Assembly: GCF_900109545.1 (NCBI RefSeq)
Contig: NZ_FOAP01000016.1
Location: 1-64,000, forward strand
Length of the DNA stretch: 64,000 bases
Source of the DNA: Stigmatella aurantiaca
GTDB taxonomy: Bacteria; Myxococcota; Myxococcia; Myxococcales; Myxococcaceae
Reading direction: 5' to 3'
Below the pieces are notes generated by a model. The model was not told the origin of the DNA, ran no database searches, and saw only the letters and a list, made by a program, of their open reading frames with translations. Shown piece by piece: positions 18,391 through 25,978 of the stretch (position 1 is the stretch's first letter; the number at the start of each line of letters is the position of its first letter). Both the position numbers and the translations under genes were made by a program.

Positions 18391-18533
18391 GGACGTCCTC
18401 TGGAAACGGCCCAGGACCCTAGAGGGATTCCCTTAGACGAATGGGGCCGAATTCGTTCCTCCTTGTAACACCGCACAGTGGCCGACAGTTGGGTTCCCCA
18501 CGCCTGCCTGCAGGCCGGGCACTGTTGTGAAAT

Positions 18534-18548
18534 TGATAATCAGTATCA
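18534..18548 (+). promoter_or_regulatory. Fur-box-like operator
   Basis: TGATAATCAGTATCA matches the 7-1-7 Fur consensus (TGATAAT-N-ATTATCA) at all but one position, in an AT-rich island of an otherwise GC-rich intergenic region, 10 bases before the lipoprotein start. This predicts iron repression of the RCC1 lipoprotein and di-heme oxidoreductase genes. Confidence 0.75.
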
Positions 18549-18557
18549 TGTTCGGAT

Positions 18558-20123
18558 ATGAAGCCTTGCCTCCTGACAAGGTCTTCGCCCCCCATGGCCC
18601 CTTCCCGTCTTTCCCTGCCCGCGGCCTGGCGCCGCCGGGCGCTGCGGTGCGCGCTGTCCCCCCTGTGGCTCCTGCTGGCGTGTGGGGAGGACAGCAGCCC
18701 CCGGCCCGAGCCGCTCCCGGTGGACACCACCGCGCCCCAGCTCCAGGTGCACTCGCCCACGGCGGGTTGGAACTACACCTCGCGGCGGGTCCGCGTGGCG
18801 TTCACCGCCACGGATGACACGCACCTGGCCACCCTGAGCTGGTCCCTCAACGGCGCCGGGTTCCTGCCGCTGCCGGCGAAGGCGCCCACCGGGGACACCT
18901 TCCTGCTCGAGGTGGCCCCCCGGCCCGGGAGCAACACGCTCACGCTGTGGGCCACGGATGAGGCGGGCCACAGTACCGGGCAGACCGTGGCCTTCCACTT
19001 CGGCAGCCTCAGCGGCAGCGGGGCGGCGCACACCGGCGTGGTGCGCCAGGGCCGGGTCTACCTGTGGGGCCGCAACAACCTGGGCCAGCTCGGCCTGGGC
19101 GAGGACGTGGTGACGGATCAGCGGGCGCCCCGGCAGGTGCCGAGCCTGGAGGGCGTGGCCGCGCTGGCGCTCAACCAGAACCACACCCTGGCGCTGCGGG
19201 AGGACGGCACCGTGTGGGCCTGGGGCGAGAACGCACAGGGGCAGCTCGGCCTGGGCCCGGCGCCCGTGCCTGGCGCGCCCCGGACCCCGGACCTCACGCC
19301 GCGCCGGAGCCCCACGCGGGTGGAGGGGCTGCAGGGCGCGGTGGCCCTGGCGCTGGGGTACCGCCACAGCCTGGCGCTGATGGAGGACGGCACGGTGCGC
19401 GCCTTCGGGGACAACTCGGCGGGCCAGCTCGGTGACGGGACGGCGGAGAGCCTCCGGGACTTCCCCGTGCGGGTGAGCGAGCTCACCCAGGTGGTGAAGG
19501 TGGTGGCCGGCTCCATGCACTCGGTGGCGCTCAAGCAGGACGGCACCGTGTGGGTCTGGGGCCGCAACACCTATGGCAACCTGGGCCAGGGCGGCCAGGG
19601 CGGCCAGGACGGCCAGCCCCACCCCACCCCCGTGCAGGTGCCGGGGGTGACGGACGTGGTGGACATCGCCTCGGGGCGCGACCACATCCTGGCCCTGCAT
19701 GCCGGGGGAACCGTCTCCGCGTGGGGGCTGGACGCCAGCGGCCAGCTGGGCTTCGGCGAGGCGTTCCCGGACAAGCAGAGCCACAGGCCCGTCCCGGTGA
19801 AGGCGCTGGAGGACGCCCGCTTCGTCTTCGCCAACGGCAACATGAGCTACGCGCAGCGGGCCGGCGGCGCGCTCGTCTCGTGGGGGCAGAACTTCAACGG
19901 CCAGCTCGGCAACGGGGGCACGAAGGACACGAACGTGCCGGTGGCCGCGGCCGAGGGGCTCACCGGGCTGTGGAGCCTGTCGCCGGGGGCCACGCACGCC
20001 GTCGCCCTCCGCGAGGACGGGACCCTCTTCACCTGGGGCTGGAGCTTCAGCGGCTCGCTCGGGCGGGAGGACCTGCTGGACCGGTGGACCTATCCCGAGC
20101 CCATCCAGGTGACGCTGCCGTGA
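18558..20123 (+). CDS. RCC1-repeat beta-propeller lipoprotein, predicted iron-regulated
   Basis: 521 residues. The N-terminus ends in a lipobox (LWLLLACG); ATG at 18558 or 18594 are both possible. An Ig-like domain (about 45-150; TTAPQLQVHSP, DEAGHSTG) is followed by seven RCC1-type repeats with the pattern G-x-V-x-x-W-G-x-N-x-x-G-Q-L-G, for example VYLWGRNNLGQLGLG, VWAWGENAQGQLGLG, VRAFGDNSAGQLGDG and LVSWGQNFNGQLGNG: enough for one closed propeller. It is probably a cell-surface binding protein. A Fur-like box lies just upstream, and its stop overlaps the start of a di-heme oxidoreductase gene (GTGA), which ties it to iron acquisition or handling. Confidence 0.88.
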   Translation: MKPCLLTRSSPPMAPSRLSLPAAWRRRALRCALSPLWLLLACGEDSSPRPEPLPVDTTAPQLQVHSPTAGWNYTSRRVRVAFTATDDTHLATLSWSLNGAGFLPLPAKAPTGDTFLLEVAPRPGSNTLTLWATDEAGHSTGQTVAFHFGSLSGSGAAHTGVVRQGRVYLWGRNNLGQLGLGEDVVTDQRAPRQVPSLEGVAALALNQNHTLALREDGTVWAWGENAQGQLGLGPAPVPGAPRTPDLTPRRSPTRVEGLQGAVALALGYRHSLALMEDGTVRAFGDNSAGQLGDGTAESLRDFPVRVSELTQVVKVVAGSMHSVALKQDGTVWVWGRNTYGNLGQGGQGGQDGQPHPTPVQVPGVTDVVDIASGRDHILALHAGGTVSAWGLDASGQLGFGEAFPDKQSHRPVPVKALEDARFVFANGNMSYAQRAGGALVSWGQNFNGQLGNGGTKDTNVPVAAAEGLTGLWSLSPGATHAVALREDGTLFTWGWSFSGSLGREDLLDRWTYPEPIQVTLP

Positions 20124-21544
20124 GGGCGGGGGCACTGCTCGGCCTGTGGCTGATGGGCATGGCCTGCCAGCCAAGTCCTGGCGCCAGCGCCCCTCCCGGG
20201 CTCCCTCCCCTTCCGGAGCCGCCCCCGGACGTGACCGAGCCGGGAGAGGAGGCCCCCGGCGGCGCCACGAGCGTGAACGTGACGGGCCCCGAGTCCTTCA
20301 CCCGCCCGGCGGCAAACCTCTCGCTCGGCCGGCGCTCGGATTTCCTCGTGGGCGAGGCCTTCTTCGAGACGGACTGGTTCGCCGCCCCCCACGCGCGAGC
20401 GGACCGGGATGGGCTGGGGCCGCTCTTCCACGCCGTCTCCTGTCTGGCGTGCCACCCGCGCGGGGGCCGGGGAGCCCCTCCCGGGCCGGGCGAGCCCGCC
20501 GTGTCGCTGCTGGTGCGGCTGAGCCTGCCCGGCACCACCCCGGAGGGCGCGCCCGTGCCCGAGCCCACCTATGGAGATCAACTCCAGCCGCTGGCGGTGG
20601 CGGGCGTGGCGCCCGAGGGGCGCGTGGAGGTGCGCACCACGGAGCGGCCCGGCACCTTCGCGGACGGCACGCCCTACACGCTGCTCGTCCCGGAGCTCGT
20701 CCTCTCGGCGCTGGGCTACGGGCCGCTGCATCCGGACACCCGCGTGTCCCCCCGGGTGGCGCAGCCCATGGTGGGCCTGGGCCTGCTGGCCGCGGTGCCG
20801 GAGGAGACGGTGCGCGCGTGGGAGGATCCGGACGACGCGGACGGGGATGGCATCTCCGGGCGGGCCAACACCGTCTGGAGTGCCCGGCGGGGCCAGGCAG
20901 TGCTGGGCCGCTTCGGCTGGAAGGCGAACCAGCCGGACCTGGAGCACCAGAACGCGGGCGCGCTTCTGGGAGACCTGGGCATCACCTCGCCGCAGTCGCC
21001 CGCGGAGCCGTGCACCGCGGCCCAGGCCGGGTGCCGCGCGGCGCCCAGCGGGGGCGCACCGGAGCTGGACGCGCGCAAGCTGGAGGCCCTCACCTTTTAT
21101 ACGCACCTGGTGGGGGTGCCCCTGCGCCAGGCGGTGGACCGGCCCGAGGTGCTGCGGGGCAAGGCGCTCTTCCACCAGACGGGGTGCGCGCGCTGCCACC
21201 GCCCCTCGCTGGAGACGGGCGAGGTGGAGGGCTACCCGGAGCTGTCCGGGCAACGCCTCTGGCCCTACACGGACCTGCTGCTGCACGACCTGGGCGAGGC
21301 GCTGGCGGACGGCCGCGAGGACTTCCTCGCCACGGGCCGGGAGTGGCGCACGCCGCCGCTGTGGGGCTTGAGCCGGACGCACGAGGTGAGCGGCCACATG
21401 CGGCTCTTGCACGATGGGCGGGCGCGCTCGGTGATGGAGGCCATCCTCTGGCACGGCGGCGAGGCCGAGGGCTCGCGCGAGCGGGTGCGGCACCTGTCCG
21501 CGGAGGACCGGGCGGCGCTGGAGGCCTTCCTGGGCTCGCTGTGA
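20120..21544 (+). CDS. Di-heme oxidoreductase family lipoprotein (COG3488, DUF1111)
   Basis: 474 residues from a GTG overlapping the RCC1 stop. Lipobox in LMGMACQ. Two c-type heme motifs are present, C108LACH and C356ARCH, with the family context (RSDFLVGEAFFETDWF, DGLGPLFHAVSCLACH, DADGDGISGRAN, GRFGWKANQPDLEHQ, WRTPPLWGL, LHDGRA). Members resemble MauG/CcpA di-heme peroxidases and in Pseudomonas and Vibrio occur with imelysin in iron-regulated operons. Here the imelysin is replaced by an RCC1 lipoprotein. A periplasmic redox role on iron or its carrier is inferred. Confidence 0.9.
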   Translation: MRAGALLGLWLMGMACQPSPGASAPPGLPPLPEPPPDVTEPGEEAPGGATSVNVTGPESFTRPAANLSLGRRSDFLVGEAFFETDWFAAPHARADRDGLGPLFHAVSCLACHPRGGRGAPPGPGEPAVSLLVRLSLPGTTPEGAPVPEPTYGDQLQPLAVAGVAPEGRVEVRTTERPGTFADGTPYTLLVPELVLSALGYGPLHPDTRVSPRVAQPMVGLGLLAAVPEETVRAWEDPDDADGDGISGRANTVWSARRGQAVLGRFGWKANQPDLEHQNAGALLGDLGITSPQSPAEPCTAAQAGCRAAPSGGAPELDARKLEALTFYTHLVGVPLRQAVDRPEVLRGKALFHQTGCARCHRPSLETGEVEGYPELSGQRLWPYTDLLLHDLGEALADGREDFLATGREWRTPPLWGLSRTHEVSGHMRLLHDGRARSVMEAILWHGGEAEGSRERVRHLSAEDRAALEAFLGSL

Positions 21545-23702: not shown

Positions 23703-24121
23703 TCACCTGGGAGGTTCTGAGCTGGCGTCCGACCCCCCCGCCTGTTCGTTGGAGCTCAGCAGACATGCCTCGAGCTGAGCGGCGATCGCCTCGTGGTCCG
23801 CCTGCTGGATGATGAAGACGACCTCCTGGCGCCTGTCCCCATGAGGGCCCTCCCTCACCTCGCGCTCCAGCTCGGCGCGCACCTCGGCCTCCTCGGGCCA
23901 CTCGGAGCGGGGCAGCGCGGCCCACCACACGAGCACGTCCGCGAACTCCACCTGCTCCACGTCTCGGCCACCGGCAGGGGCTCTGAAATCCCCGTGGACT
24001 CGATGAGCAGGTAGTCGAAGCGGTCCTCCTGGGCCAGCCGGAGGGTCTCCTGGAGCAGGTCCTCCCGGAGCGTGCAGCAGATGCAGCCGTTGGACAGCTC
24101 CACGCTCATGTCATTGACGAT
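23703..24121 (-). pseudogene. Decayed COG0523 (CobW/ZigA-type) GTPase gene
   Basis: Three conserved pieces of this metallochaperone GTPase family survive, joined by deletions. Piece 1 (24121-23960) reads IVNDMS, then directly VELSNGCICCTLREDLL and LLIESTGISEPLPVAET; CICC is the metal-binding CXCC motif. A frameshift at about 23960 leads into piece 2, EQVEFADVLV, followed at once by piece 3, WWAALPRSEWPEE to GDRRQEVVFI and EACLLS, the C-terminal domain. The P-loop (GFLGAGKT) and the NKxD region are missing. The neighbour at 24219 is a Fur/Zur-family regulator, the usual controller of such zinc-starvation GTPases. Confidence 0.85.
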
Positions 24122-24179
24122 GGGAGCACTCCTCGCGCGCGGGGAGGCGCACGGTTCGAGAGGAAATTTTCTGTAACTG

Positions 24180-24192
24180 TGTTGCAAAAACA
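24180..24192. promoter_or_regulatory. Weak TGTT-N5-AACA inverted repeat
   Basis: A short imperfect dyad in an AT-rich patch between the GTPase pseudogene and the Fur/Zur-family gene, about 27 bases before the regulator's first ATG. It could be an autoregulatory site, but the match to any known Zur or Fur box is poor. Confidence 0.25.
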
Positions 24193-24218
24193 AATCAAGG
24201 GCAGCAGCACAAGGTCAG

Positions 24219-24704
24219 ATGAAAGTGGACCGCAGATGGGTTATTCGAGGGGCCATGGGCGCAAAGAAGAGTTCTCCCCAACCCACGCTCGCCGAGCTCC
24301 AGCAGAAGATCCGTGCCGTGGGGCTGCGGAGCACCTCGCCTCGCGTGGCCGTGCTGCGCGAGCTGGAGGCGGCCTCCGCTCCCCTGAGCCACGCGGATCT
24401 CGTGGATGCCCTGTGCGACGAGGGCTTCGACCGGGTCACCCTGTACCGCAACCTGACGGACCTCACCGAGGCGGGGCTCGTGCTGCGCTCCGACCTGGGG
24501 GACCACGTGTGGCGCTTCGAGCTGCGCCGCGCGGGCAAGGAGCACCAGGGCTTCCACGCGCACTTCACCTGCTCGGACTGCGGCACGGTGGCGTGCCTGC
24601 CCGAGGGCGCCATCGCCTTGACGCCCGTCAAGGGCGCGCCCCGGGCGGTCGCCAACCGCGCGGTGGAAGTCCAGCTGCGCGGCCTCTGCGACCGCTGCGA
24701 CTGA
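24219..24704 (+). CDS. Fur-family metalloregulator, probably Zur
   Basis: Winged-helix repressor of up to 161 residues (149 from the alternative ATG at 24255). The DNA-binding region reads LRSTSPRVAVLRELEAA and FDRVTLYRNLTDLTEAGLV (recognition helix TLYRNL). Metal ligands visible: H-x-H in GFHAHFTCSDCG, the structural CXXC pair CSDC, and a C-terminal CDRC. Divergent linkage to a (broken) COG0523 GTPase argues for zinc sensing; sequence alone cannot exclude Fur or PerR. An AT-rich spacer lies upstream. Confidence 0.85.
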   Translation: MKVDRRWVIRGAMGAKKSSPQPTLAELQQKIRAVGLRSTSPRVAVLRELEAASAPLSHADLVDALCDEGFDRVTLYRNLTDLTEAGLVLRSDLGDHVWRFELRRAGKEHQGFHAHFTCSDCGTVACLPEGAIALTPVKGAPRAVANRAVEVQLRGLCDRCD

Positions 24705-24763: not shown

Positions 24764-25978
24764 ATGCGGCGCTCGCCCCTGGGGAAGGCCGCGCTCGCCT
24801 CCCTGCTCCTCCATGCGGTGTTCCTCGCCCTGCTCTGGCAAGGGGAGCCCGCCGTGCCCAAGGGACGTCCCGCCTCGGCGGCCCTCCCCCTGGAGGTGGA
24901 CCTCGTCTTCGCGGCGGCCCCGGACCCGCCTCCCACGCCCCCTCCGCCCCCGGCGGCCCCTCCCTCCCGGCCGCGTCCCAAGTCCCGGCCTGCGGCCCCC
25001 CTTCCCCCTCCGCCCGCCCCGGCCACCCCGCTCCCGGAGCCTCCTCGGCCGCCCACCGGGGGGCCGTCCTTGGACGCGCCGGTCGCGGAGCGTTCGGAGC
25101 GGGCCCCCGTGCTCCTTCCGCGCTCGCTCGGCGTGGAGGGCACGGTCCCGGTCTCCCCGGAGCCCTCCCGGGGGCGGACGCTCCGGCCGGGAGACCCCAG
25201 CCTGTCCCCCGAGGTGCTCGCCGCCGAGGAGAAGGCCCGGGTGGGCGCCCGGGTGCAGGCCTTCGCCGAGAACGAGCTGGCCACGCTCCGGGTGCAGAAC
25301 GGCCTGGTGGACGCCTACTTCGGCCGCATCGACACCGCGCTGGAGAAGCAGATGGAGGACGCGCCGCTCTTCGGCGGGCAGAAGGGCCGCCTGACGCGCC
25401 TGGCCCAGGCGTACCAGGACGAGGCCGCCCGCTACGGCGCGGGACGGGCAGCAGACGCCCCCGTGCATGAGCGCGCGGCCCCCAGCGCCAGCCAACGGTT
25501 CGAAGCCCTCTCCCGGGGCAATCCCCAGGACAACGGGATGCGGGCCTTCATGCAGGCGGGCGAATCCATGCAGCGCCTCGCCGAGCCTCCCGGCGGGCTC
25601 GTCGTCATCCTGGAGCTTCAGCAAGCCCCGGATGGCCAGCTCCGCTCGGTCCAGGTGGTGGAGTCCAGCGGCAACCCGGCCTTCGACGCCTATGTGGTGG
25701 ACGCGGTGCCCCCGGCGCTCGCGGGCCTGGAGCCGCCCGCAGGCAAGCCCCTGGGCGTGCGCGAGGACGGCATCCGCTCGCGCTGGGCCGTCGAGGGCCG
25801 CGTCGTCTACCTCCGGAAGCTCAAGGACATGAAAGGCCAGGACACGTGGTACCTGGCCACCATGGCCGGGCTGGGCGTGCTCTCCGGCCGCTTCGAGGAG
25901 ACCACGGGAGACCTCGAGGCCGTGGACCTGCTCCACCCGCGCTTCGTCTGCCGCTCGCGCCTGCTCCAGGTGTGGTGA
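24764..25978 (+). CDS. TonB-like energy-transducer-type protein
   Basis: 404 residues. A single N-terminal membrane segment (AALASLLLHAVFLALLW) follows a short basic cytoplasmic tail, then a long Pro-rich spacer (about 48-110), a helical region (about 150-230), and a TonB-C-like domain (about 270-330; GLVVILELQQAPDGQLRSVQVVESSGNPAFDAYVVDAV). This is the layout of TonB: inner-membrane anchor, periplasm-spanning spacer, receptor-contact domain. The last 50 residues go beyond the usual end. No exbB/exbD are adjacent. It may energise the TonB-dependent receptor at 37974, but nothing here proves the pairing. Confidence 0.8.
   Translation: MRRSPLGKAALASLLLHAVFLALLWQGEPAVPKGRPASAALPLEVDLVFAAAPDPPPTPPPPPAAPPSRPRPKSRPAAPLPPPPAPATPLPEPPRPPTGGPSLDAPVAERSERAPVLLPRSLGVEGTVPVSPEPSRGRTLRPGDPSLSPEVLAAEEKARVGARVQAFAENELATLRVQNGLVDAYFGRIDTALEKQMEDAPLFGGQKGRLTRLAQAYQDEAARYGAGRAADAPVHERAAPSASQRFEALSRGNPQDNGMRAFMQAGESMQRLAEPPGGLVVILELQQAPDGQLRSVQVVESSGNPAFDAYVVDAVPPALAGLEPPAGKPLGVREDGIRSRWAVEGRVVYLRKLKDMKGQDTWYLATMAGLGVLSGRFEETTGDLEAVDLLHPRFVCRSRLLQVW

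Follow-up and report, generated by a model that had tools for sequence, protein, structure and literature searches.

Results

An RCC1-DHOR operon behind a Fur-type box

Why would a secreted RCC1 propeller share an operon with a di-heme enzyme, and which signal turns the two genes on? The question arises at a locus in a 64,000-nucleotide stretch of Stigmatella aurantiaca DNA (the window), where a Fur-type box is followed by a gene for an RCC1 lipoprotein and a gene for a di-heme c-type lipoprotein of the DHOR family (Table 1). The box is of the TGA...TCA class. Its best register, TGATAATCAGTATCA (18534-18548), has one mismatch to the 7-1-7 consensus TGATAATNATTATCA, and a second register with three mismatches (18528-18542) overlaps it, the two making up the 21-bp site TGAAATTGATAATCAGTATCA. 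The chance expectation of such a site within the window is 0.00. Across this GC-rich genome (9.37 Mb), nine places carry at most two mismatches, compared with one for a reversed control; three sites, the present box among them, reach a single mismatch. From the end of the box it is 9 bases to the first ATG (18558) and 45 bases to an alternative ATG at 18594. The latter is as likely a start and may be the true one, because its methionine and signal peptide align with those of the orthologs.

Pfam assigned the first gene to RCC1 and WD40_RLD with E values down to 8e-105 (PF00415, 213.7 bits), and the AlphaFold model of its product (pLDDT 87.6) contains 28 propeller strands arranged as seven blades of four. 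Ahead of the propeller, at approximately residues 61-148, the model places an Ig-like domain of seven strands, a feature absent from the first-pass annotation. Among solved structures, UVR8, HERC, and RCC1 come closest in fold, and BLIP-II and Kti13 rank lower. By inspection, the RCC1 alignment offers no obvious metal site. Tryptophan residues are conserved in the propeller and belong mostly to the structural WG of the RCC1 repeat.

The second gene matches PF06537 with E = 2.6e-87 (293.8 bits; cut-off 22). Its two CXXCH c-heme motifs, SCLACH and GCARCH (residues 108-112 and 356-360), are invariant among DHOR orthologs and are kept, along with other invariant residues, in DHORs linked to imelysin. 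The GMAC lipobox is weak by itself, but a cysteine occupies that place in nearly all orthologs. The AlphaFold model, built on a shallow alignment, has a pLDDT of 42, too poor to draw on, and sequence searches against solved structures turned up nothing beyond fragments of cytochrome c and a weak match to a cytochrome c peroxidase (E 0.7). The GTG start overlaps the TGA stop of the RCC1 gene (20121-20123) in the tetranucleotide GTGA.

The first-pass annotation had described a near-perfect Fur box ahead of a seven-repeat RCC1 propeller lipoprotein and a COG3488 di-heme lipoprotein coupled by GTGA and ending at 21544; all of this is borne out, as is its proposal that both products are lipoproteins, each having a lipoprotein-type signal peptide. 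Its term "eukaryote-like" for the propeller misleads: this genome is rich in RCC1 proteins, and the repeat gave 150 scored hits spread over at least 17 reading frames.

The gene downstream of the DHOR gene encodes a histidine kinase on the opposite strand. Further on, 2.7 kb downstream of the operon, lies a divergent Fur-family regulator, the second of this genome, followed by a gene for a TonB/TolA-like protein; this block is kept in related genomes. Beside the regulator is a broken COG0523/CobW GTPase gene, whose nucleotide-binding and CobW C-terminal parts form separate, shortened frames.

Table 1. Coordinates of the box, the operon, and other features named in the text. Locations without a prefix are window positions.
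Feature	Location	Strand	Basis or description
Fur-type box, two overlapping 7-1-7 registers	18528-18548	.	TGAAATTGATAATCAGTATCA; best 15-mer 18534-18548
RCC1 lipoprotein gene	18558-20123	+	Signal peptide, lipobox LLAC, Ig-like domain, seven-bladed RCC1 propeller
DHOR (PF06537, COG3488) di-heme c-type lipoprotein gene	20120-21544	+	Start GTG; Pfam, CXXCH motifs
Broken COG0523/CobW GTPase gene	23703-24193	-	
Second Fur-family regulator	24219-24704	+	45 bits to PF01475
TonB/TolA-like protein	24764-25978	+	
TonB-dependent receptor-type protein	L031 9179-11752	-	TonB C-terminal-type domain (77-151) before plug (193-296)
Second ribosomal protein S4 gene	L024 6883-7593 (G000:C13:107538)	-	One-mismatch box at head
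RCC1-DHOR fusion lipoprotein, genome G161	L209 4000-7002	+	About 1001 aa, single reading frame

The pairing is conserved and reaches gene fusion

The first-pass annotation had, beforehand, let its proposal stand or fall with conservation of the pair outside this strain. The search for DHOR orthologs covered 58 genomes from the family and 195 from the phylum. In 35 of 37 informative family genomes, that is, those with a close ortholog and enough flanking sequence, the gene just before DHOR encodes an RCC1 protein. The pair spans at least seven genera, plus another family, so the proposal withstands this check. The flanking genes vary by genus and include chemotaxis genes, a CusA-like transporter, a gyrase-type gene, and a phosphoglycerate mutase-type gene; the conservation is therefore not merely large-scale synteny. 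Two RCC1 genes are present in at least three genomes of the g12 group, probably in a fourth, and in the g26 genomes checked. In four g12 genomes the RCC1-DHOR pair lies directly upstream of an imelysin-DHOR-imelysin operon, and in three of these a strong box also precedes the imelysin gene.

Beyond the family, a scan of 84,980 species was evaluated for its best 80 matches. Within these, the RCC1-adjacent DHORs were all from Myxococcota, and the DHORs of Vibrio, Pseudomonas, Polyangium, and others mostly had imelysin in that place. A plasmid search turned up no RCC1-linked DHOR with more than 60% identity; where annotated neighbours were seen, they were imelysin. The four DHOR paralogs of this genome have neither an adjacent RCC1 gene nor a strong box.

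In a phylogenetic tree, the RCC1-linked DHORs form one clade (SH-aLRT 100) among the imelysin-linked DHORs. The two exceptions to the pairing, Myxococcus-like genomes G138 and G151 (L190, L191), have a DHOR gene and no RCC1 gene between the genes that flank the operon in the window; these DHORs nest inside the RCC1 clade, which indicates that RCC1 was lost there. The RCC1 proteins linked to DHOR, in turn, stand apart from six further RCC1 proteins encoded by this genome (support 100). The tree also holds a DHOR group from Myxococcus- and Corallococcus-like genomes (L054-L060, L082) with no adjacent imelysin or RCC1 and no strong box.

Genome G161, from another family of the same order, encodes both parts as a single protein with a signal peptide, a lipobox, and a long proline-glutamate linker. 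In the tree, the DHOR part falls in with the RCC1 clade (97). The RCC1 part reaches 331-366 bits with full-length first-copy DHOR-linked RCC1 proteins, compared with 260 bits for the truncated L077 gene call, 216 for divergent second copies, and at most 184 for RCC1 paralogs. G161 additionally carries an imelysin-DHOR-imelysin operon with a box. Because the two proteins are fused in a distant relative, they very likely cooperate. Together, these data indicate that the RCC1-DHOR unit is real and conserved, and it is probably functional; there is good support for two cooperating proteins under a Fur-family box.

Distribution of the box

We built a matrix for the box from six other sites of this genome and scanned 495,550 bases around 35 operons, counting sites of at least 14 bits as strong. 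There were 34 such sites: 29 at the heads of RCC1-DHOR operons, three at the heads of imelysin-DHOR operons, and two elsewhere. Thus, 29 of the 35 RCC1-DHOR operons are headed by a box; five Archangium-like genomes (g8) and G014 have no recognisable one.

In the genome under study, the same motif heads a TonB receptor gene with HmuY, a second HmuY gene, and a TonB gene with PepSY. It also heads a pair of MFS and aminotransferase genes close to a TonB receptor, and a gene for a dihydroxybenzoate dehydrogenase-like protein beside a siderophore-interacting-type protein; the last of these assignments, and the name myxochelin, were made partly by reading the sequences. The TonB-dependent receptor-type protein near the MFS/aminotransferase pair has its TonB C-terminal-type domain ahead of the plug.

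A one-mismatch box heads a second gene for ribosomal protein S4, whose product lacks the four cysteines present in the main S4; this paralog points to a typical zinc-starvation (Zur) target. The motif alone therefore cannot separate Fur from Zur. The operon is apparently switched on by metal shortage, and the metal is probably iron: the majority of motif targets and the iron response of imelysin-DHOR operons elsewhere favour iron as the signal. The label "iron-handling module" of the first-pass annotation was in this respect overstated.

Discussion

Function of the pair

The account that we prefer, and to which we would give about an even chance, is that of a metal-starvation operon, probably repressed by Fur, which encodes one two-part envelope machine, with RCC1 docking or presenting to DHOR and iron redox as its likely chemistry. 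The pair would be made when iron is scarce. The RCC1 propeller would dock DHOR or present its substrate, as proposed for imelysin in the paralogous imelysin-DHOR operon. With its two c-hemes, DHOR may carry out one-electron redox chemistry, either in the periplasm or at the outer membrane. The most likely substrate would be iron, or a complex of it, that is being taken up.

The strongest rival is peroxide defence, which we regard as possible, though on balance improbable. In this version, DHOR would act like a di-heme cytochrome c peroxidase and destroy H2O2 at the envelope, RCC1 would dock an electron donor or target, and the enzyme would be made under iron shortage or peroxide stress. Pfam labels DHOR a putative peroxidase, and the only peroxidase among the solved structures is the weak match noted above. 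In Leptospira, lethal H2O2 raised an RCC1 gene by ~5 log2 units and the neighbouring di-heme gene by 2.2 (PMC7567364), and rcc1 LIC11467, which according to PMC7567364 is the same gene as LIMLP_07150, rose 7.8-fold in host chambers (PMC3953431). However, the Fur-type box stands mostly at iron loci in this genome, and the paralogous imelysin-DHOR operon answers iron limitation as well as peroxide.

Somewhat more doubtful is a distinct surface machine for iron acquisition that works without imelysin. Here, RCC1 at the outer membrane would bind an iron carrier, for which a protein, a heme protein, or a siderophore are candidates, and the di-heme partner would release or convert the iron by redox.

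We consider it unlikely that Zur or another Fur-family regulator, rather than Fur, controls the operon and that the operon serves zinc or general metal stress. The second Fur-family gene close downstream, beside the broken COG0523/CobW gene, and the motif ahead of the cysteine-less S4 paralog are consistent with such control. However, of the other sites of the motif that are linked to genes, most stand before iron loci (siderophore-type operons, HmuY, and the TonB receptor), and homologous imelysin-DHOR operons are regulated by iron or Fur in other bacteria. Moreover, the main Fur protein scores 103-121 bits against Fur models and 48 against Zur, values that lie below the NCBIfam cut-offs.

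Di-heme enzymes can oxidise residues of a partner protein, as MauG does. By analogy, DHOR might oxidise a tryptophan or tyrosine of its propeller partner to form a protein-derived cofactor. The dedicated pairing, the fusion, and the conserved propeller tryptophans would suit such a maturation, but those tryptophans are mostly structural, and we hold this version to be very improbable. Equally improbable is that RCC1 is a passenger, a chance neighbour of an iron-regulated DHOR without common function: although RCC1 proteins are abundant in this genome and two genomes kept DHOR and lost RCC1, the gene order is kept in nearly all informative genomes and the linked RCC1 proteins separate cleanly from the others, and we reject this reading as largely refuted because of the fusion and the conserved pairing.

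A DHOR clade that has taken a different dedicated partner, up to fusion, directly raises the question of what the partner slot does in the widespread Fur-regulated imelysin operons. The pair also suggests a testable role for one of the many RCC1 propellers that myxobacteria secrete, and the Leptospira RCC1/di-heme pair, induced in the host and by peroxide, may find its explanation here.

Comparison with known systems

RCC1-like propellers are known from UVR8, HERC, RCC1, BLIP-II, and Kti13, with which the window's RCC1 protein has its fold in common; BLIP-II and Kti13 were solved as binding partners of another protein. The window protein is set apart by being a bacterial lipoprotein that carries an Ig-like domain and has a di-heme partner.

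The pairing with a heme enzyme is likewise found in EfeUOB, in which the heme enzyme EfeB and the imelysin-domain protein EfeO take part in iron uptake. A Pfam scan of the two-gene operon found no Ftr1-type permease, DyP peroxidase, or imelysin; the heme enzyme here is DHOR. DUF1111 proteins have been termed EfeB homologs (PMC3143127). EfeB is a DyP-type peroxidase (PMC3577903), and we therefore do not adopt that equation.

The closest relative is the imelysin-DHOR-imelysin operon, represented by Pseudomonas PA4370-PA4372, Vibrio VC1264-VC1266, and the Leptospira lruB operon. As in the window, DHOR (COG3488) is the second gene, the proteins are extracytoplasmic, and in many cases a Fur-type box stands at the head. 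The Pseudomonas operon is regulated by Fur or iron (PMC3143127), and the Leptospira operon shows an iron response with dipyridyl and also responds to peroxide (PMC13066512). The window operon differs in that its first gene encodes an RCC1 propeller and no second imelysin follows in the window. No imelysin (PF09375) adjoins the window DHOR, its upstream neighbour being RCC1. Since the RCC1-linked DHORs nest among the imelysin-linked ones, RCC1 occupies the slot of imelysin. The claim of the first-pass annotation that RCC1 takes the place of imelysin therefore holds within the operon, on the DHOR tree and gene order, but not genome-wide: this genome and its relatives retain imelysin genes, and RCC1 as a genome-wide substitute is rejected. 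The one imelysin gene of this genome lies on another contig, beside another DHOR.

A second parallel comes from Leptospira, where LIMLP_07150 (five RCC1 domains) and LIMLP_07145 (two cytochrome c-like domains) form a probable bicistronic operon (PMC7567364). Compared by description only, the order is that of the window, an RCC1-repeat protein and then an oxidoreductase with two cytochrome c domains. Unlike our reading of the window operon, the report on the Leptospira pair describes induction by peroxide, not regulation by iron. Among the open-access papers searched, this single one links RCC1 with such an enzyme, and we found none that describes the pair as a system. The first-pass annotation had called the system undescribed; this stands insofar as no paper found treats the pair as a system, but a pair of the same description has been mentioned, and the pairing is therefore not wholly unreported. 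The unit is best read as a variant form of an established module, the Fur-regulated imelysin-DHOR operon; Leptospira offers a passing precedent for the variant.
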